Assembly (NCBI GenBank): GCA_903844735.1 | Contig: CAIMUX010000079.1 | Coordinates: 1-64,000 of the forward strand | DNA length: 64,000 nucleotides | Source: Candidatus Eiseniibacteriota bacterium | Lineage (GTDB): Bacteria; Eisenbacteria; RBG-16-71-46; CAIMUX01 | Direction of reading: 5' to 3' | Shown: positions 37,218-54,502 of the stretch, in pieces | How positions within the stretch are numbered: position 1 is the stretch's first letter | How the letters are laid out: every line of letters begins with the position of its first letter | Notes under the pieces: generated by a model | Databases searched by the model: none | What the model was told of the DNA's origin: nothing | What the model saw: only the letters and a program-made list of their open reading frames with translations | Program-made: the position numbers and the translations under genes

Positions 37218-38486
37218 ATGAACCACGATGCCATGCCGGATCGCCCCGTCCAGGACGACGGATATGACGGCATTCCCGCCCTAGGCCACCGCGCGCGCGC
37301 CGATGGCGGGAACCGGGCCGCCGCCGTCGATGCGGCCGCCGGCGCGGCAGCCACCCCCGACTGGCTCGCCGATTTCGACTACGACCTTCCCGACGCTTCC
37401 ATCGCCCGCCATCCCGCGCAGCCGCGTGACACCTCGCGGTTGTTGGTTCTCGACCGCGCCAGTGGGGCTCGCACCCAGGCCTCGTTTCGCCATCTGCCGC
37501 GATTCCTGCGCGCGGGCGACCTCCTCGTCGTGAACGAAACACGGGTCTTGAGGGCGAGAGTCTTCACGCACCTCGCGCGGACGGGGCGGCCGGTGGAGGT
37601 CCTCTTCTCGCACCCGGATGGAGATGCGTGGGTGGCGTTGCTCGGCCCGGGCCGACGGCTCAGGTCGGGGGACCGGTTGCTGCCCCAAGGGAGAAGTGAA
37701 TGCGGCGAAAGAGATGGTGATCCTCTTCCCGACCTCGTTCTTGATTGCCCGGTGGGAAACGGTCTTTGGCGCCTGCGTCCCGAGGGCTGTGCGGTGGAAG
37801 CCCTGATGGAGCGTGCGGGGCACCTTCCGCTTCCGCCTTACCTGCGACGCATGGACCGCCCCGAGGATGACGACTGGTACCAGACGGTGTACGCGCGAAC
37901 GGACGGAGCGGTGGCCGCCCCCACGGCCGGGCTTCACTTCACGGAAGCCGTTTTCGCAGCACTGGCCGCGGCTGGCGTGGGGGTGGCAAGCGTGCTGCTC
38001 CATGTCGGCCCAGGGACTTTCCTGCCGGTTCGGGCCGCCCGGTCTGCGGAGCATCGGGTTCTCCCTGAGCGGTACGAGGTGACCGAGGAGACGGTGGCCG
38101 CGATCGCGGCGACGCGCTCGGGCGGAGGCCGGGTTGTTGCGGTGGGGACAACCACGGTGCGGGCGCTGGAGACGGCCTCCGCGTTGCCCGGAACGGTCGG
38201 AACGACCACGGTGCGGGCGCCGGAGACGGAGGCGGCGTTGACAGGAGCGGTCGGGACGTCCTCAGGCCTGACGGCGGGATCCGGCTGGACCGACTGCACC
38301 ATTCTTCCCGGGCACCGCTTCCGCGCCGTCGATGCCATGATCACGAACTTCCACCTGCCGCGGTCGAGTCTGCTGCTCCTGGTGGCGGCCTTTGCGGGAC
38401 GCGAGAGGGTCCTCTCGGCCTACGCTGAGGCGCGGGATGCGGGGTTTCGATTCTACAGCTTCGGCGATGCGATGCTCATCGTGTGA
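37218..38486 (+). CDS. queA: S-adenosylmethionine:tRNA ribosyltransferase-isomerase QueA
   Basis: 422 residues against roughly 340-360 usual. It makes epoxyqueuosine in tRNA anticodons, directly before Tgt in the pathway's gene order. Conserved blocks: FDYDLPDASIARHPA, LLVVNETRVLRARVF, HLPLPPYLRR, QTVYARTDGAVAAPTAGLHF, HVGPGTFLPVR, and the final ITNFHLPRSSLLLLVAAF. The excess length comes from a 50-residue Ala/Asp-rich N-terminal extension and an in-frame duplication of VGTTTVRALE plus flank near residues 309-344 (separate entry). ATG 37218 is used; ATG 37233 is possible. The duplication lies in a loop-like stretch, so activity is likely retained. Confidence 0.93.
   Translation: MNHDAMPDRPVQDDGYDGIPALGHRARADGGNRAAAVDAAAGAAATPDWLADFDYDLPDASIARHPAQPRDTSRLLVLDRASGARTQASFRHLPRFLRAGDLLVVNETRVLRARVFTHLARTGRPVEVLFSHPDGDAWVALLGPGRRLRSGDRLLPQGRSECGERDGDPLPDLVLDCPVGNGLWRLRPEGCAVEALMERAGHLPLPPYLRRMDRPEDDDWYQTVYARTDGAVAAPTAGLHFTEAVFAALAAAGVGVASVLLHVGPGTFLPVRAARSAEHRVLPERYEVTEETVAAIAATRSGGGRVVAVGTTTVRALETASALPGTVGTTTVRAPETEAALTGAVGTSSGLTAGSGWTDCTILPGHRFRAVDAMITNFHLPRSSLLLLVAAFAGRERVLSAYAEARDAGFRFYSFGDAMLIV
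38142..38249 (+). repeat. 54-bp tandem duplication inside queA
   Basis: Two adjacent 54-base units (38142-38195 and 38196-38249) encode VGTTTVRALETASALPGT and VGTTTVRAPETEAALTGA, 43 of 54 bases identical by hand count. A third, weaker start (VGTSSG) follows. The conserved QueA motif GTTTVRALE is thus present twice. Confidence 0.85.
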
Positions 38487-38580
38487 GCGGGATATCGGCG
38501 CGAGATAATGCGGTAGCTCGAATCGATCGAGACTCTGCAGGAAGCGGTGTGGAAGAATCGTGGGAGAGGAGTCTACAAGC

Positions 38581-39783
38581 GTGAACGAGACCGCTCACGA
38601 CGGCGTTGGGACCAACCGGAGCACGGCCGACGTTCGTTTCGATCTCCTCCACGAGGCGCCTTCGGGACGCGGCCGCCGAGGCCGCATTCAATTCCCGCAA
38701 CGCGAGGCCTCGCCGGGCTTCCGGCTGCCGGAGCGGTCGGTGGAGACACCAGCCTTCATGCCCGTGGGCACGCAGGCCACGGTGAAGACGCTTACGCCGG
38801 ACGAAGTCAGTGCCTCCGGCGCGCGCATGCTTCTCGCCAATACCTACCACCTCTACCTGCGTCCGGGGCATGAACGGGTGCGGCGCCTCGGCGGCTTGCA
38901 CAAGTTCATGGGCTGGAATGGCCCGATCCTGACTGATTCGGGCGGGTACCAGGTTCACTCGCTGGCGCGGTTGAACAAGATCCGCGACGACGGCGTGGAG
39001 TTTCAGTCCCACATCGATGGATCGCGGCATCGCTTCACGCCCGAGCTGGCGACGCGCGTGCAGGTGGCCCTCGGTTCGGATGTCCTGATGGCTTTCGACA
39101 CGATGACGCCCTACCCGTCGGAGTGGGACCGCGCCCGCGCAGACATGGAGCGGACGTCCCGCTGGGCTGCCGCCTGTGCCGAGACCTGGCGGGGCGAGGG
39201 GTGGCCCGGCACCGCGCTTTTCGGGATCCAGCAGGGTGGGCTCTATGCCGACCTGCGCCGCGAGTCGACGGAACGGCTCGTCGCCCTCGACCTGCCCGGC
39301 TACGCGGTCGGCGGCTTGGCCGTGGGGGAGCCGATCGAGGAGATGTACGATGTGCTGGCCGAGTGCGCGCCCTTGTTGCCGGAAGCGAAGCCCCGCTACC
39401 TGATGGGCGTCGGTCGTCCAGAGGATATCCTCGAGGCGGTGGACCGCGGCATCGACCTGTTTGACTGTGTTCTTCCGACCCGCAATGCGCGCAAGGGGAG
39501 CGTGTTCACCTCGCGAGGGAAACTGGTCGTGAAGAACGCCGCCTACCAAGAGGACGAACGCCCCCTCGACCCGGACTGCCGCTGTCCGACCTGTCGCACC
39601 TTTTCCCGGGCGTATCTCCGCCACCTTTTCGCCGCGGGCGAGATCCTCGCCATGCGTCTGGCGACGCTACACTCACTCCAGTTCTACCAGGATCTCATGG
39701 AAGGGATCCGTTCCGCCCTTTCGGAGGGGAGGTTCGCCGCCTTCAAGACGGAGACCCTCGCTCGGCTGGCCGAGGGAGCCTGA
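38581..39783 (+). CDS. tgt: tRNA-guanine transglycosylase
   Basis: 400 residues from GTG 38581, with GAGAGGAG about ten bases upstream; GTG 38560 is also possible. It exchanges guanine-34 for preQ1. Key features: TPAFMPVGTQATVKTLTP, NTYHLYLRPG, the catalytic-Asp segment LTDSGGYQVHSL, AFDTMTPYP, FGIQQGG, GYAVGGLAVGEP, the second catalytic Asp in LFDCVLPTRNARKG, and the zinc site CRCPTCRTFSRAYLRHLF. Its last 132 bases are repeated at 41775-41906, and its last 100 bases are overlapped antisense by a lipoprotein gene. In many bacteria yajC follows tgt directly; here the lipoprotein gene separates them. Confidence 0.95.
   Translation: MNETAHDGVGTNRSTADVRFDLLHEAPSGRGRRGRIQFPQREASPGFRLPERSVETPAFMPVGTQATVKTLTPDEVSASGARMLLANTYHLYLRPGHERVRRLGGLHKFMGWNGPILTDSGGYQVHSLARLNKIRDDGVEFQSHIDGSRHRFTPELATRVQVALGSDVLMAFDTMTPYPSEWDRARADMERTSRWAAACAETWRGEGWPGTALFGIQQGGLYADLRRESTERLVALDLPGYAVGGLAVGEPIEEMYDVLAECAPLLPEAKPRYLMGVGRPEDILEAVDRGIDLFDCVLPTRNARKGSVFTSRGKLVVKNAAYQEDERPLDPDCRCPTCRTFSRAYLRHLFAAGEILAMRLATLHSLQFYQDLMEGIRSALSEGRFAAFKTETLARLAEGA
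39652..39783 (+). repeat. Direct repeat, copy 1: 3' end of tgt
   Basis: These 132 bases, from the Met codon of AMRLATLHSL to the tgt stop, recur without indels at 41775-41906 (109 of 132 identical by hand count). The repeat ends exactly at the stop codon in both copies. The reversed lipoprotein gene lies between them. Confidence 0.85.
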
Positions 39784-41684
39784 ACCCGAATCGGAACGTC
39801 GATGGTCACCGTGATGCCGGATGCGCTGGTCGCCGTTGCGGTCAGCGTCCCCGTTCCACCGGGGTTGTTCGCGAGAAAGTACCCGTACGCCACACCAAAC
39901 GGGCCTCCCGGAATCGGCGGATCCGTCGGGTCACCCCCCCTGGGCGGCACGGCGGGCTGGCCGGGATCGCCGCCCGTGCCGGTGGAGTCTCTATCGTCGG
40001 GGCGCTGGCCGTCGAACGGGACAAAGACGCCAGCGTTCCCATCGTAGGACCAGAGGATCGGGGCGCTCCAGTCGACATCGTTCCATGTGTTCAGGGCGAT
40101 GGCTTCGACAAGGACCGAATCGCCGACGGTTGCCTCAATCGGGTTCGGTCGAACTTCGATGCGGTCGAGAACCGGTGCGGGCGCCACGCGCACCATCGCG
40201 GTCTTCTCGATCGACACGCCGGTCAGCGAGTCGGTCACGACGCAGCGCACCGTCCCCTCACCCTCCTCCGAGGCGCGGAACATCACGCCCCCCCTCCCGT
40301 TCGAGAACCGCCCGTCGGGCGGCATGGGGGGCCAGGGCCCGTCCGATCCGACCCCGCCGCTGCCATCCTGGCCAGGCGGGCCGTTCGGGTCTATCCACGG
40401 CCCTTCCGTCTCTTCGATGGTGCCGAGAGATGCGGGCTCGACCGACCACGCGTACGCGAGACCACCGATGGGGCGGTCCCACTCGTTCAGGCCACACGCG
40501 TAGAAGAAGGCCTCGCCTCCGGACGCAAGCCTGACCTCTTCCGGATAGAGATACACGGTGGTCAGCGTTCCGCGCGCGAGGACGGAAACCCCGACGGTCT
40601 CGGTCCAGCTCGCCCCCGCGACGCTCACGTTGATCTCGCCGCGTGCCTCTCCCTGTACTCCCGCCGCCGCGGTGAACCGGACAAGGCTTATGGCTGAGGG
40701 ATCGATGTCCGGAGGAAGCGGTCCCCCGGGCCCGGTGCTGTCGGGGGGCACTGTGATCGTGCTGTCTTTCCCTTCTGTCCGCGAACCGTCCCCCGGGAGG
40801 GCCATCGGTCCGACCCATCCGTCGTCCATTCCGTACCAGATCCTGGCCAGAATCTCCGAACGCTCCGCGGGCGTGAGGTCGGTGACCGGCTCGATTGTTC
40901 CGAGCGTCGCGGCATCGACGCTCCATACGAACGGAACGCCGCGCGCAACGTCGCCGGTGCCGTTGATTGCGTACGCCGCGAGATAGCGGGAGTCGCCCGC
41001 GAGCAGCTCCACCATGTACGGCGGCTTCACGATGATCCGCACGACATCGCCGTCGGCGACGACCTCGATATCCGCAACCGCGTTCACGCTATCGCTCAAA
41101 GACGCGACGATCTGCCCGCTTCCGACTGCGGTGCCGATGAAGATCCCCTCGCGCGAAAGCACGCCGATCGTGTGCAGAGAGCGGATCGACCAGGTCGGGC
41201 GGTACGCGCCGCCCTGCCCGCTGTCGACCCCGGTCCAGGGGTCGGCACGCCCCCCGATGTAGAACTGCACGCTTTCCAGCACACCGACGCGCGCCGACTG
41301 CGGATAGATCGCGATCGGTCCCGGGACCGCGCCGTCCGGAAGGACGGTGCAATCCATGGCCACGGTGTCGCCAGGGTGGACGCTGACCTCGATCCGGTTC
41401 GACTGGTAGGGCACGCCCTCGGGCGGCTCAACCACGACGGTGAAGTTGCCGCCGGGGAGACCTGTGAACTCGAAAGAGCCGTCCGCGGCCGTGACGGCGG
41501 TCTGATCCGTACCCTCGATACGAACCACCACACCGCCGAGTGTGCCCCCCCCGGAAGAATCGACCACGCGCCCCTTCAGGACGCCGTTGTTGTCGCGCGG
41601 TTCAATCGGGTTGTCGCTCTTGGAGCAAGCGATGGGCAGGAGAGTGACAAGAACGAGAAGAGCGATGAGATACCATGAGCGCAT
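39684..41684 (-). CDS. Lipoprotein with carboxypeptidase-regulatory-like and Ig-like domains
   Basis: 666 residues. Lipoprotein signal MRSWYLIALLVLVTLLPIAC with lipobox LPIA-C at Cys 20. Residues about 35-115 form a carboxypeptidase-regulatory-like sandwich (GVLKGRVVDSSGGGTLGG, DGSFEFTGLPGGNFTV). Three bacterial-Ig-like repeats follow, each with a SVDAATLGTIE or SVEPASLGTIEE-type core, separated by Gly/Pro/Asp-rich linkers such as DSTGPGGPLPPDIDPS. Probably an outer-membrane-anchored surface protein. The reading frame runs about 32 residues into the antisense of tgt before stopping at 39684, so its natural C-terminus may have been lost. It is reversed relative to the operon around it and flanked by repeats of the tgt end. 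Confidence 0.75.
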   Translation of the reverse strand: MRSWYLIALLVLVTLLPIACSKSDNPIEPRDNNGVLKGRVVDSSGGGTLGGVVVRIEGTDQTAVTAADGSFEFTGLPGGNFTVVVEPPEGVPYQSNRIEVSVHPGDTVAMDCTVLPDGAVPGPIAIYPQSARVGVLESVQFYIGGRADPWTGVDSGQGGAYRPTWSIRSLHTIGVLSREGIFIGTAVGSGQIVASLSDSVNAVADIEVVADGDVVRIIVKPPYMVELLAGDSRYLAAYAINGTGDVARGVPFVWSVDAATLGTIEPVTDLTPAERSEILARIWYGMDDGWVGPMALPGDGSRTEGKDSTITVPPDSTGPGGPLPPDIDPSAISLVRFTAAAGVQGEARGEINVSVAGASWTETVGVSVLARGTLTTVYLYPEEVRLASGGEAFFYACGLNEWDRPIGGLAYAWSVEPASLGTIEETEGPWIDPNGPPGQDGSGGVGSDGPWPPMPPDGRFSNGRGGVMFRASEEGEGTVRCVVTDSLTGVSIEKTAMVRVAPAPVLDRIEVRPNPIEATVGDSVLVEAIALNTWNDVDWSAPILWSYDGNAGVFVPFDGQRPDDRDSTGTGGDPGQPAVPPRGGDPTDPPIPGGPFGVAYGYFLANNPGGTGTLTATATSASGITVTIDVPIRVQAPSASRARVSVLKAANLPSERAERIPSMRSW

Positions 41685-41774
41685 GATCGACTCCTCCTCT
41701 GGTACGTACCACGACTCTCAGCATGCCGCCTGCGCGCAGGATCGTCAAGGGTAGATTGGGTAGCGAGTTAGCCT

Positions 41775-41906
41775 ATGCAACTGGCCACGCTGCACTCGCT
41801 CCGGTACTATCAGAACCTCATGGAAGGGTTCCGCTCTGCCCTCGCGGTGGGGTGGTTTACCGCTTTCAGGACGGAGACCCTCGCGCGGCTGGCCGAGGGA
41901 GCATGA
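41775..41906 (+). pseudogene. Second copy of the tgt 3' end (direct repeat, copy 2)
   Basis: Reads MQLATLHSLRYYQNLMEG, FRSALAVGWFTAFRTE and TLARLAEGA then TGA, collinear with the end of tgt. 23 of 132 bases differ from tgt by hand count; 11 differences are synonymous codons and many others conservative, so both versions evolved under selection before or after separation. No start, active site or zinc site is present. It lies just upstream of yajC, where an intact tgt would be expected to end, so it is probably the original resident end. Confidence 0.82.
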
Positions 41907-41953
41907 TCGCCGCCGGCGGTTCCGGCGAAGGAACGAAGGGAGAGACCGATCCG

Positions 41954-42298
41954 ATGCACGATTTCTTCTGGCCGACCGTGGCCATGGCCCAGGCCGGCGC
42001 GCCCGGTGGTGGCGGGATGAACCCGGGCGCCGCACGGAGCAGCATGCTGCCGAGTTTCGTCCTCATGCTGGTGCTCATCCTGATCATGTACTTCATGATC
42101 ATGCGGCCCCAGATGAAGAAGCAGAAGCAGGTGCAGGAGATGCTGAAGGCACTGAAGGTGGGAGACCGCGTGGTGACTTCCGGCGGGATCTACGGGAATG
42201 TCGTAGGCCTGAAGGACGACACCGTGGTTCTGAAGATCGACGATAACGTCAAGGTCGAGCTGGCCCGCCATGCCGTGGCCGGGGTTGTCACCAAGTAG
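41954..42298 (+). CDS. yajC: Preprotein translocase accessory subunit YajC
   Basis: 114 residues from ATG 41954, with GGGAGAG eight bases upstream. One transmembrane helix (MLPSFVLMLVLILIMYFMI) is followed by RPQMKKQKQVQEMLKALKVGDRVVTSGGIYGNVVGL, the family hallmark, and KVELARHAVAGVV. It joins SecDF at the inner membrane. The usual secD and secF do not follow; fmt does. An 18-residue Gly/Ala-rich N-terminus precedes the helix. Confidence 0.95.
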   Translation: MHDFFWPTVAMAQAGAPGGGGMNPGAARSSMLPSFVLMLVLILIMYFMIMRPQMKKQKQVQEMLKALKVGDRVVTSGGIYGNVVGLKDDTVVLKIDDNVKVELARHAVAGVVTK

Positions 42299-42369: not shown

Positions 42370-43398
42370 ATGCGCGTCTTGTTTTTCGGCACGCCTGACT
42401 TCGCCGCCCGGGTGCTGGAGGCTCTTCTTCCTTCGCCTGCGGGGGATGTGCGCTCCGGCCACGAGGTCGTGGCGCTGGTGAGTCAGCCCTCTCGCCCGCA
42501 AGGACGCGGGCTTCGCGTGGAGGATCCCGCGGCCGTGCAGGTGGCGCGCGCCGCGGGGATCCAGGTGCTCCAGCCTGCGAAACTCCACGCGCCGGAGACT
42601 CTTGCGTCGTTCCGCGCATTGGCGCCGGATCTCTGCGTGACGGCCGCCTTTGGCCGCCTTCTGCGCCCGTCCATCCTGGGCATAGCACCGCGCGGCTGCT
42701 GGAACGTCCATGCCAGCCTGCTCCCGCGCCACCGCGGCGCCTCGCCGGTGAGTGCCGCCATCCTAGCCGGCGATGCGTGGACCGGCATCACGATCTTCCA
42801 GCTCGACACCGGGCTCGATACCGGCCCGCTACTGCTTCAGGAGATGACCCCCATCGGTTCCGAAGAGACGGCGGGCGAGCTGACCGACCGGCTGGCGCGG
42901 ATCGGGGGACGCTTGCTCGCGCGGGCGTGCGCCATCGAGGAACGCGGCGGGCTCATCGCCCAGGCGCAGCCCGCGTGGGGCGCCACCTATGCCTCGCTCG
43001 TGGACAAGGAAGATGGCCTCCTCGATTGGAACCGTCCGGTGGAGCAGGTTGACCGTGCCATCCGGGCCTTCTCGCCTTGGCCGGGGGCGTTCACCTTCGC
43101 GGCGGGAAAACGGTTGCGCGTACATCGCTCGCGCCCATGGCACCGGTTGCAGGTGTCCGGGGCCGAGCCCACCCCGCTGGTTCCGGCGCTCGATACCGCG
43201 CCCGGCCCTCTGGTTCCGGTGCCCGAGGCCTCGCCCGGCACGCTGGTCCCAGCACCCGAAGGGATCGGTGTGGTCTGCAATCCAGGTGTGCTCCTTCTCC
43301 TCGAAGTGCAGGGGGAGGGGCGGAAACGACAGGAGGCCACCGAGTGGCTGCGGGGAAGCCGCCTGCCCGCGGGCGCGCGGTTGCGCGCGAGCGCGTAG
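42370..43398 (+). CDS. fmt: Methionyl-tRNA formyltransferase
   Basis: 342 residues from ATG 42370 (MRVLFFGTPDFAARVLEAL). GTG 42355 lies just after a GAGGGG run and is less likely by homology. Formyl-THF binding and catalytic region: VTAAFGRLLRPSIL, NVHASLLPRHRGASPVSAAIL, GITIFQLDTGLDTGPLL. The C-terminal OB-like domain starts at FSPWPGAFTF. It formylates initiator Met-tRNA. The C-terminal domain contains a Pro-rich repeat insertion (about residues 269-298, separate entry). Its 3' end overlaps the rsmB start by 55 bases. The def gene that often precedes fmt is not here. Confidence 0.94.
   Translation: MRVLFFGTPDFAARVLEALLPSPAGDVRSGHEVVALVSQPSRPQGRGLRVEDPAAVQVARAAGIQVLQPAKLHAPETLASFRALAPDLCVTAAFGRLLRPSILGIAPRGCWNVHASLLPRHRGASPVSAAILAGDAWTGITIFQLDTGLDTGPLLLQEMTPIGSEETAGELTDRLARIGGRLLARACAIEERGGLIAQAQPAWGATYASLVDKEDGLLDWNRPVEQVDRAIRAFSPWPGAFTFAAGKRLRVHRSRPWHRLQVSGAEPTPLVPALDTAPGPLVPVPEASPGTLVPAPEGIGVVCNPGVLLLLEVQGEGRKRQEATEWLRGSRLPAGARLRASA
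43174..43263 (+). repeat. 33-bp repeat insertion inside fmt
   Basis: Units encode PLVPALDTAPG, PLVPVPEASPG and a partial TLVPAPEG, 11 residues each, in frame. They fall in a loop of the Fmt C-terminal domain and have no counterpart I know in other Fmt proteins. Confidence 0.7.
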
Positions 43399-52149: not shown

Positions 52150-52842
52150 ATGCCAGCTCGTCCAGGCCGGTCCGACTCAACCTATGCCCGATGGGGCAAG
52201 CGCGGGCTCGACCTGACCGCCGGCCTGGCAATCCTTCTCGTCTTCGGCCTTGGGATGCTCATCATCGCCCTGCTCATCCGGTTGGAAGACGGGGGACCCG
52301 TATTCTATCGCCAGGAACGCATCGGCCGGGACGGTCATGCGTTCCGCCTGACAAAGTTCCGATCGATGGTCTGCGGCGCGGAGCACCAGGGAGCGGGTAT
52401 CCGCGTCGAGAGAAACGACTCGCGCATCACCCGCATCGGACGGATTCTCCGCAAGCTGAGCTTGGACGAACTGGCACAGGTCTTCGATGTTCTGCGAGGC
52501 GATATGAGCCTGGTCGGACCCCGCCCTGGGCTGCGCTACCAGACTGAGCTCTATGATGCCGAACAGATGGGCCGGCTCGCCGTCCGGCCCGGGATCACGG
52601 GCTGGGCACAGATCAACGGTCGAAACTCCATCGCGTGGCCACAGCGTATCCGTCTCGATCTTGCCTACATCGACCAGCTGAGCCTCGGGATGGACATCCG
52701 GATCTTGGTTCGCACGATTCCGGCGATCCTGGCCGGATCGGATCAGATCGCGGATGCGGACTACTGGAAGCAGCGCCGCGCGCAGGTGGAAGCGCATACA
52801 CCGGAACCGTCCCCCTCGCAGGCTCCGGATGGCCACGCCTGA
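52150..52842 (+). CDS. Initiating phosphoglycosyltransferase (bacterial sugar transferase, PglC/WcaJ-like)
   Basis: 230 residues. Small monotopic type: a re-entrant N-terminal helix ([19 protein letters not shown]), then [22 protein letters not shown], the catalytic Asp-Glu dyad in [19 protein letters not shown], and [14 protein letters not shown]. It transfers a sugar phosphate from UDP-sugar to undecaprenyl phosphate and so starts repeat-unit assembly. The lack of the extra N-terminal membrane domain makes it PglC-like. Next to a PglE-like and a PglD-like gene, its substrate may be a UDP-amino sugar. Overlaps the next gene by 14 bases. Confidence 0.92.
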
Positions 52843-54502
52843 CGCTCGGCAGAAGCTGCGCGTGGGCATCCTCCTGGACTCCTGCCGGGTGCCTGCCTGG
52901 GCCTATGCCATGCTGGAGCAGATCCACCGATCCGACTACGCCGAGATCACCCTGATTGTCCTCAATGACACACCCGAGCGTCCGCAGAGCCCACTCTCGT
53001 CCTTTCTCGCCCACCGCCACCTCCTGCTGTACGGCGTCTATCAGAAGCTGGACGATCGGCTCTTCCGACCACGACCCGATGCTTTCGCCCGCCGAGATCT
53101 GCGCGACTTTCTGGCCGGCGTCCCCTGTATGCCGGTCGTTCCCGAGCGATCGGCTCACGCGGACCGCTTTACTCCCGAAGATCTCCGCCGGATCAACGAG
53201 CAAGACCTTGACGTCCTCATCCGACTCGGATTTCGCATCCTGGGCGGGGACATCCTCCGCAGCGCCAAGCTGGGAGTCTGGTCTTACCATCATGGAGACA
53301 GCCGCAACGAACGGGAGGGTCCGCCCGGATTCTGGGAGGTCTTGGAGAACCGCCCCGTAACCGGGTCCGTTGTACAGATCCTGAACGAGGACGCAGGCGC
53401 TGGACTGGTGCTGTGCGACTCCTTCTCCGCCACCGACCCGTGGTCCGTGAAGCAAAGCTGCAACAGCGCCTTCTGGAAAAGCAGCACGATGCTTCCCCGG
53501 GCTCTGCGCACGCTGCACCGGCAGGGAGCCGAGCGCTACCTGGCCGAAACACGCACGAGGAACAGCGCTCCTCCCCTCTATGCCCGCATCATCCGCGAGA
53601 CGCCCACCAATCGGGAGCTCGCCCCGCTCCTCTGTCGTCATCTGACCAGGTTCTTAGGCCATCGACTGCGGCACCGCTTCTCCTTCAACCAGTGGAACCT
53701 CCTCTACGATCTGCACGACGGCGTTTCCAGGCCCTTCTCGCAGTACCAACGGATCACGCCGCCCAAAGACCGCTTCTGGGCCGATCCCAACGTCGTCTTC
53801 CGGGACGACTCCTACTATGTCTTCTTCGAGGAGGTGTTCTACAGGAAGAGGAGGGGTCGGATCGCGGTCCTGACCTTCGACCGGGCCGGGCGACCCGGCA
53901 AACCCATTACGGTTCTGGAACCCGACTACCATGTGTCCTATCCGTTCGTCTTCGACTGGCAGAACCGTACCTATATGCTGCTGGAATCGTCCGCCGCGGG
54001 CCGGATTCAGGTCTTTCGGTGCGAGGAGTTCCCCCACCGGTGGGTCTTCCACCGCAACCTGATCGAGGACATCGCTGCCGTGGACGGAACCCTTTTCCAG
54101 CACCAAGACAAGTGGTGGCTCTTCGCCAACGTCAGGGAGCGGGAGGGCGCCTCGATCTGTGACGAGTTGTTTCTCTTCTCCGCCGACAGCCCGCTATCCG
54201 GCTCGTGGGCCCCACACCCGATGAACCCGATCGTCTCGGACGCTCGCCGGGCGAGGCCGGCGGGCCCGCTCTTCCTTCATTCCGATGCCGTCTACCGGCC
54301 GTCGCAGGACTGCTCTCTCGGTTATGGTCACAGTCTGGTTCTGAATCGGGTCACGGTGCTGAGCGAAGCCGATTACCGGGAAGAAGAGGTGCTGCGGCTG
54401 GGACCGGATTGGGACAAGAAGGTCCGCGGCTTGCACACGTTGTCCCGGGCTGGGCGTCTCACCGTCATCGATGCCAAGTTCCGGCGATCCAGGCTGTTCT
54501 GA
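52829..54502 (+). CDS. Formyltransferase-like domain fused to a GINT1/GH43-like beta-propeller
   Basis: 557 residues from ATG 52829. The N-terminal part (about 1-230) resembles formyltransferase folds: LRVGILLDSCRVPAWAY, DLDVLIRLGFRILGGDIL, and VWSYHHGDSRNEREGPPGFWE, where the HHGD and PPGFWE segments mirror the Fmt/ArnA folate site. The C-terminal part (about 300-550) is a five-bladed propeller-like domain (KDRFWADPNVVFRDDSYYVFFEE, AVDGTLFQHQDKWWLFAN) like that at the N-terminus of glucosamine inositolphosphorylceramide transferases. It may N-formylate an amino sugar or transfer a sugar. Coupled to both neighbours by overlaps. Function uncertain. Confidence 0.7.
   Translation: MATPDARQKLRVGILLDSCRVPAWAYAMLEQIHRSDYAEITLIVLNDTPERPQSPLSSFLAHRHLLLYGVYQKLDDRLFRPRPDAFARRDLRDFLAGVPCMPVVPERSAHADRFTPEDLRRINEQDLDVLIRLGFRILGGDILRSAKLGVWSYHHGDSRNEREGPPGFWEVLENRPVTGSVVQILNEDAGAGLVLCDSFSATDPWSVKQSCNSAFWKSSTMLPRALRTLHRQGAERYLAETRTRNSAPPLYARIIRETPTNRELAPLLCRHLTRFLGHRLRHRFSFNQWNLLYDLHDGVSRPFSQYQRITPPKDRFWADPNVVFRDDSYYVFFEEVFYRKRRGRIAVLTFDRAGRPGKPITVLEPDYHVSYPFVFDWQNRTYMLLESSAAGRIQVFRCEEFPHRWVFHRNLIEDIAAVDGTLFQHQDKWWLFANVREREGASICDELFLFSADSPLSGSWAPHPMNPIVSDARRARPAGPLFLHSDAVYRPSQDCSLGYGHSLVLNRVTVLSEADYREEEVLRLGPDWDKKVRGLHTLSRAGRLTVIDAKFRRSRLF

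Follow-up and report, generated by a model that had tools for sequence, protein, structure and literature searches.

How did an antisense lipoprotein gene come to lie between tgt and yajC, bracketed by two copies of the tgt 3′ end? The locus belongs to a stretch of 64,000 nucleotides, here called the window, and its features are collected in Table 1 together with those of comparable loci elsewhere in the genome (G000). A preliminary description had counted 109 identical bases of 132 without indels between the two copies, and both a repeat search and self-BLAST recovered this direct repeat at exactly the same coordinates (132 nt, 82.6% identical, 0 gaps, E = 1.1e-31). The 23 mismatches are scattered along the 132 bp, leave a longest exact run of 17 bp and fall on the three codon positions as 5/5/13. 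The upstream, attached copy forms the final 43 codons and the stop (39781-39783) of an intact tgt, and the downstream copy ends 47 bp before the ATG of yajC (41954). Chance similarity is ruled out by an E value of about 1e-31, and tandem paralogy was rejected, the genome containing neither a second tgt nor a second lipoprotein gene of the same kind. Beyond the two copies, no third match to the tail repeat was found anywhere in the 5.4-Mb genome, and a search of the genome contigs returned no close relative of this tgt.

Table 1. Features of the tgt-yajC interval (positions in the window) and of the other loci with duplicated gene ends (contig:positions).
Feature	Position	Strand	Basis or remarks
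tgt, queuine tRNA-ribosyltransferase, intact	38560..39783	+	Pfam TGT, E=6e-151
Attached copy of tgt 3′ end, in frame, stop included	39652..39783	+	Repeat
Lipoprotein gene, antisense to tgt-yajC operon	39684..41684	-	ORF; Pfam CarboxypepD_reg; 81% aa to G004
GAGCC overlap, left junction, common to tgt end and G004 lipoprotein flank	39776..39780		Alignments to G004
Insert, 1991 bp, missing from all class relatives read	39784..41774		Homologous to G004 contig C134
Right junction zone, similarity to G004 leader fades	41766..41774		Alignment to G004
Relic copy of tgt 3′ end at native place of tgt, decaying yet open frame	41775..41906	+	Repeat, alignment
yajC, usual downstream neighbour of tgt	41954..42298	+	Pfam YajC
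ispG tail duplication	C14:51222-51354 and 52587-52719		133 bp, 95.5%; insert is a single outer-membrane beta-barrel gene
Aminotransferase class V gene	C79:115625-115766 and 119799-119940		142 bp, 91.5%; same contig as the window, outside it
pglX-like methylase gene	C27:49728-49850 and 52788-52910		123 bp, 92%; insert is an antisense AlbA_2 gene
livF	C30		Relic in two pieces, 93-95%
Nucleotidyltransferase gene	C130		107 bp, 94%; relic extends into start of next gene
thrC	C3:55781-56160 and 61401-64300		82.5%; 5.3-kb insert, apgM beyond

Comparison with relatives indicates that the insertion is genuine, as is the duplication of the gene end. The tgt locus could be read in 25 cases among class relatives, and in all of them yajC is the next gene after tgt, in the same orientation and with a single tail; the gap between the two genes is mostly about 0-120 bp and nowhere exceeds about 260 bp. 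The site was therefore empty before the insertion, as the preliminary description had supposed. The 47-bp spacing between the downstream copy and yajC is normal by the same measure. The downstream copy therefore sits at the native position of the tgt end, with the insert and its attached tail upstream of it, in agreement with the earlier proposal that a tail had been left beside yajC.

The only plausible gene between the tail copies is a minus-strand ORF encoding a signal peptide with the lipobox LPIAC and a Pfam CarboxypepD_reg domain. The earlier picture of a lone antisense lipoprotein gene enclosed by the repeats holds in this respect but not in its extent, since the frame has no stop inside the insert, crosses the first tail copy in antisense and ends at 39684, overlapping the end of tgt by 100 bp. 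This gene is single-copy in the genome and missing from both family relatives (G001 and G002). A close relative occurs in only 1 of 47 phylum genomes, G004, which represents another family of the same order and does not carry the gene near tgt. The two lipoproteins share 81% of their amino acids (80% of their DNA) versus 59% for tgt of the same two genomes; this difference, along with the lack of a close relative elsewhere in the 47 genomes, argues that the lipoprotein gene was most likely acquired horizontally from another lineage. Its dN/dS against G004, about 0.2-0.35, says that the gene is being maintained. In G004, it adjoins an ORF fragment that by eye resembles a broken transposase and to which Pfam gave no match. 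Viral contigs and plasmids held no relatives of the lipoprotein, and a mobile cassette was rejected. As for a promoter of yajC, no sigma-70 consensus match was found in 39600-42100, a scan that says little for this phylum.

At the left junction, homology to G004 begins at GAGCC, within the end of tgt, and the G004-homologous part of the lipoprotein gene spans 39776-41684, the last about 34 codons being antisense tgt. The G004 protein ends in IRVLAR followed by a stop codon, whereas here IRVQA is followed by about 34 more codons; the last codons and the stop of the lipoprotein gene were thus lost at the 5-bp overlap. The match at this junction amounts to 5 bp (GAGCC), or 7/8 over GAGCCNGA, in a comparison with one donor-like sequence. 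On the right, resemblance to the G004 leader dies away around 41766-41772, a few bases short of the relic, which starts at 41775. At tgt, the captured gene is without its own stop codon, and its frame now extends into the adjacent gene.

The two tails have since followed different courses. Nonsynonymous differences make up 10/21 changed codons in the tail pair versus 8/71 in a functional control, a tgt pair from two genomes within one genus (Fisher P = 7e-4). In the homologue alignment, the downstream copy is altered at conserved or common residues (R to Q, I to F, E to V, R to W, A to T), and the attached tail retains most of the conserved ones. Judged by these substitutions, the downstream copy is a redundant, decaying relic under relaxed constraint. 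At about three positions, the relic carries the residue of the relatives, which is probably the older one, and the attached tail is the one altered; the relic is so not a recent copy of today's tgt. With a dS of about 0.5 between the tails, these data are compatible with an old duplication and also with the meeting of two alleles, two histories that the synonymous and nonsynonymous counts of the tgt tail alone cannot separate.

The locus is not a singular recombinase-less cassette of the sort that the preliminary description had implied. A census of diverged local direct repeats over 2.1 Mb (39% of the genome), akin to the search which that description had recommended for other lipoprotein genes bounded by repeated gene ends, recovered six further loci in which a gene is followed by an insert of 1.2-5.3 kb and, beyond it, by a piece of the gene's 3′ part. 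Several such footprints are thus present, and the recurrence points to a general recombination route rather than to a special cassette. Domain repeats within one gene and tandem paralogues (C80, C33, C24 and C87) were left out of the cases. So was a stretch of C2 (8000-24000) that is rich in toxin-antitoxin and defence genes and holds many nested local repeats of 90-99% identity.

The six loci differ in cargo and in the state of their relics. For the beta-barrel gene at ispG, no match was found among relatives at E 1e-5 except a 38% one in G002. The aminotransferase relic covers part of the 3′ region, stops 90 bp before the gene end and is changed at conserved motif residues (H to Y, C to G); its insert consists of 4 kb with toxin-antitoxin-like and broken genes. 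The pglX-like locus lies in a BREX-type operon, where the relic abuts the next operon gene in the same layout as tgt-lipoprotein-yajC. Relics of livF and thrC have been reduced by internal deletions. That of thrC, next to an insert with secreted and outer-membrane-type genes, consists of three colinear pieces that together reach from the preceding gene's end to the stop of thrC; the original duplication, part of which was later lost, therefore measured about 1.5 kb and took in portions of two genes. The thrC-apgM gap measures 5.6 kb here versus about 150 bp in G004 and 116 bp in G008, which confirms a second site that is empty in both of these genomes. When the seven tail pairs were pooled, 45/85 changed codons were nonsynonymous (P = 3e-8 versus the functional tgt pair). 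Repeat pairs not within one gene numbered 34 in 1.92 Mb of G000 versus 3 in 0.75 Mb of two control sets; the first figure is inflated by clustering and the control sets are small, and the contrast is suggestive of an enrichment of gene-end repeats in this genome.

Taken as a class, illegitimate capture of foreign DNA with duplication of the gene end, whether by a single crossover or by template switching, is very probably what happened. Two features that this class predicts were found: the end of the target gene is directly duplicated around the insert (132 bp, 83%, and six further loci), and the site is empty in relatives (25 class relatives; thrC-apgM). We rank the single-crossover type first, and our best explanation, held with evenly balanced confidence, is that foreign DNA was captured illegitimately at tgt-yajC with duplication of the tgt end by this route. 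A foreign chromosomal fragment comprising little more than the lipoprotein gene would have been joined at the tgt-yajC junction by microhomology-assisted illegitimate joining. The incoming fragment, with a bit of the target gene, would have been trimmed and recircularised by end joining, and the circle would then have integrated by one homologous crossover, giving the order gene, tail, insert, tail copy, next gene. The intact tgt would keep the upstream copy, and the downstream copy beside yajC would become redundant and decay. The recircularisation, the crossover, this order of events and the putative donor are what we infer. In E. coli, recircularised fragments that integrate by a single crossover produce target-gene-end duplications of 109-950 bp (Amarir-Bouhram et al. 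2011, PMC3240628). As in those integrants, a direct duplication of the target gene end flanks the insert and no site-specific recombinase is involved; unlike them, laboratory plasmid products one generation old, the present cases are natural and old, with relics diverged by up to 17%. Against the single-crossover route stands its need for a donor in which tgt sequence was already joined to the lipoprotein gene; none is known, and in G004 the two lie apart. The genome encodes ComEC, a common protein. Ku (PF02735) was not found in G000, which is 95.8% complete, and was found in both family relatives, G001 and G002; Ku-type end joining was rejected on the lack of a detectable Ku.

One-step capture would explain the GAGCC overlap at the tgt-lipoprotein junction just as well. 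Replication or repair would then have left tgt at its stop via GAGCC, copied lipoprotein DNA and returned 132 bp upstream by template switching; in a variant, a staggered break would have been filled in around a captured fragment. In either case, both tails would have been identical at the start. Such a start agrees with the pooled nonsynonymous share, which lies near the value of about 0.6 roughly expected when one copy is free and the other constrained. The original thrC duplicate of about 1.5 kb with parts of two genes is, however, long for a template return, the missing Ku weighs against an end-joining version, and the genome holds no source copy of the lipoprotein gene, so the template had to be foreign DNA. 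We consider one-step capture, the two variants taken together, possible but not probable.

A version developed from the preliminary description starts with a segment from a related strain that carried both the lipoprotein gene and a tgt tail of its own. Homologous exchange at one end and illegitimate joining at the opposite end would have put this tail in the place of the local one, and the old tail would have stayed next to yajC. Such a course would account for a relic at its native place, for the roughly three positions at which the relic and not the attached tail agrees with the relatives, and for the high synonymous divergence of the tails. Yet a loss of recipient DNA, not the retention of an old tail, is the usual outcome of classical homology-facilitated illegitimate recombination (PMC3240628), and no such deletion was found next to the insert, where recipient DNA is duplicated and yajC and its spacing are intact. 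At the other loci, moreover, identity within the pairs is 92-95% and many of the changes are nonsynonymous, a pattern that younger duplications would be expected to show. Replacement by a related strain's segment thus appears quite unlikely.

An assembly artefact, with two strain haplotypes stitched into one contig, might be suspected in a genome that resembles a draft or metagenome assembly (142 contigs, 4.99% contamination). It is very improbable: the relics do not behave as functional variants, given the nonsynonymous excess over seven loci (P = 3e-8), their changes fall on conserved residues, those of livF and thrC bear internal deletions, and the junctions contain no N and join inexact tails, which are so not a repeated k-mer.

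Phage and island integration at gene 3′ ends can supply a replacement tail, as with icd and e14, and the displacement of the native gene end beyond the insert is common to that system and to ours, which differs in having no integrase, no identical core and no site shared by the loci. Site-specific integration at the tgt 3′ end was also raised by the preliminary description; with a recombinase gene since lost or acting in trans, it would explain why the duplication reaches precisely to the stop codon, as it would at att sites in gene ends, but it is extremely improbable for an insert holding only a lipoprotein gene and, as that description rightly noted, no integrase, with a longest identical run of 17 bp (an old att core could have diverged), no shared insert ends or inverted repeats over the seven loci, unrelated target genes and differing duplicated lengths. 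An insertion sequence is likewise disfavoured, there being no transposase and no inverted match longer than 5 bp between the insert ends. Direct repeats of up to several hundred base pairs do surround IS1549 and IS1634, which are able to make long target duplications (PMC2266710); unlike these elements, the inserts described here have neither transposase nor terminal repeats.

Illegitimate capture with a duplicated gene end also resembles the origin proposed for orphan 3′ ends in Vibrio T6SS loci, for which homology-facilitated illegitimate recombination was invoked (Kirchberger et al. 2017, PMC5361080). There and at Rhs loci, a newcomer at the 3′ side of a gene displaces the old 3′ end downstream and needs no integrase. 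The old end, however, encodes a different toxin tip or immunity gene in those systems and a redundant copy of the same tail in ours, where housekeeping genes are concerned and the recipient shows a duplication in place of a deletion. The mechanism at tgt is, to all appearances, an ordinary one, and the locus belongs to a recurrent set through which such acquisitions become visible. A broader reading, which we put forward tentatively and with some doubt, is that this lineage repeatedly gains genes, singly or in small groups, at the downstream ends of resident ones, duplicating the 3′ end of the upstream gene without a recombinase. It is just as doubtful a suggestion that the cargo consists of outer-membrane, secreted and defence-type genes and that the decaying tails serve as dated insertion scars.

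Gene-end duplications beside inserts were already known from laboratory recombination, and here they can be read as natural scars. Each scar shows the point at which foreign DNA came in between resident genes, identifies the newcomer and, through the decay of the relic, gives a rough age for the event. In uncultured bacteria, recombinase-free gene acquisition could in this way be mapped by simply scanning for gene-end repeats that have diverged. As a separate observation, the window also contains in-frame tandem duplications within core genes, at 38140-38247 in queA (54 bp, two copies) and at 43163-43261 in fmt (33 bp, three copies).
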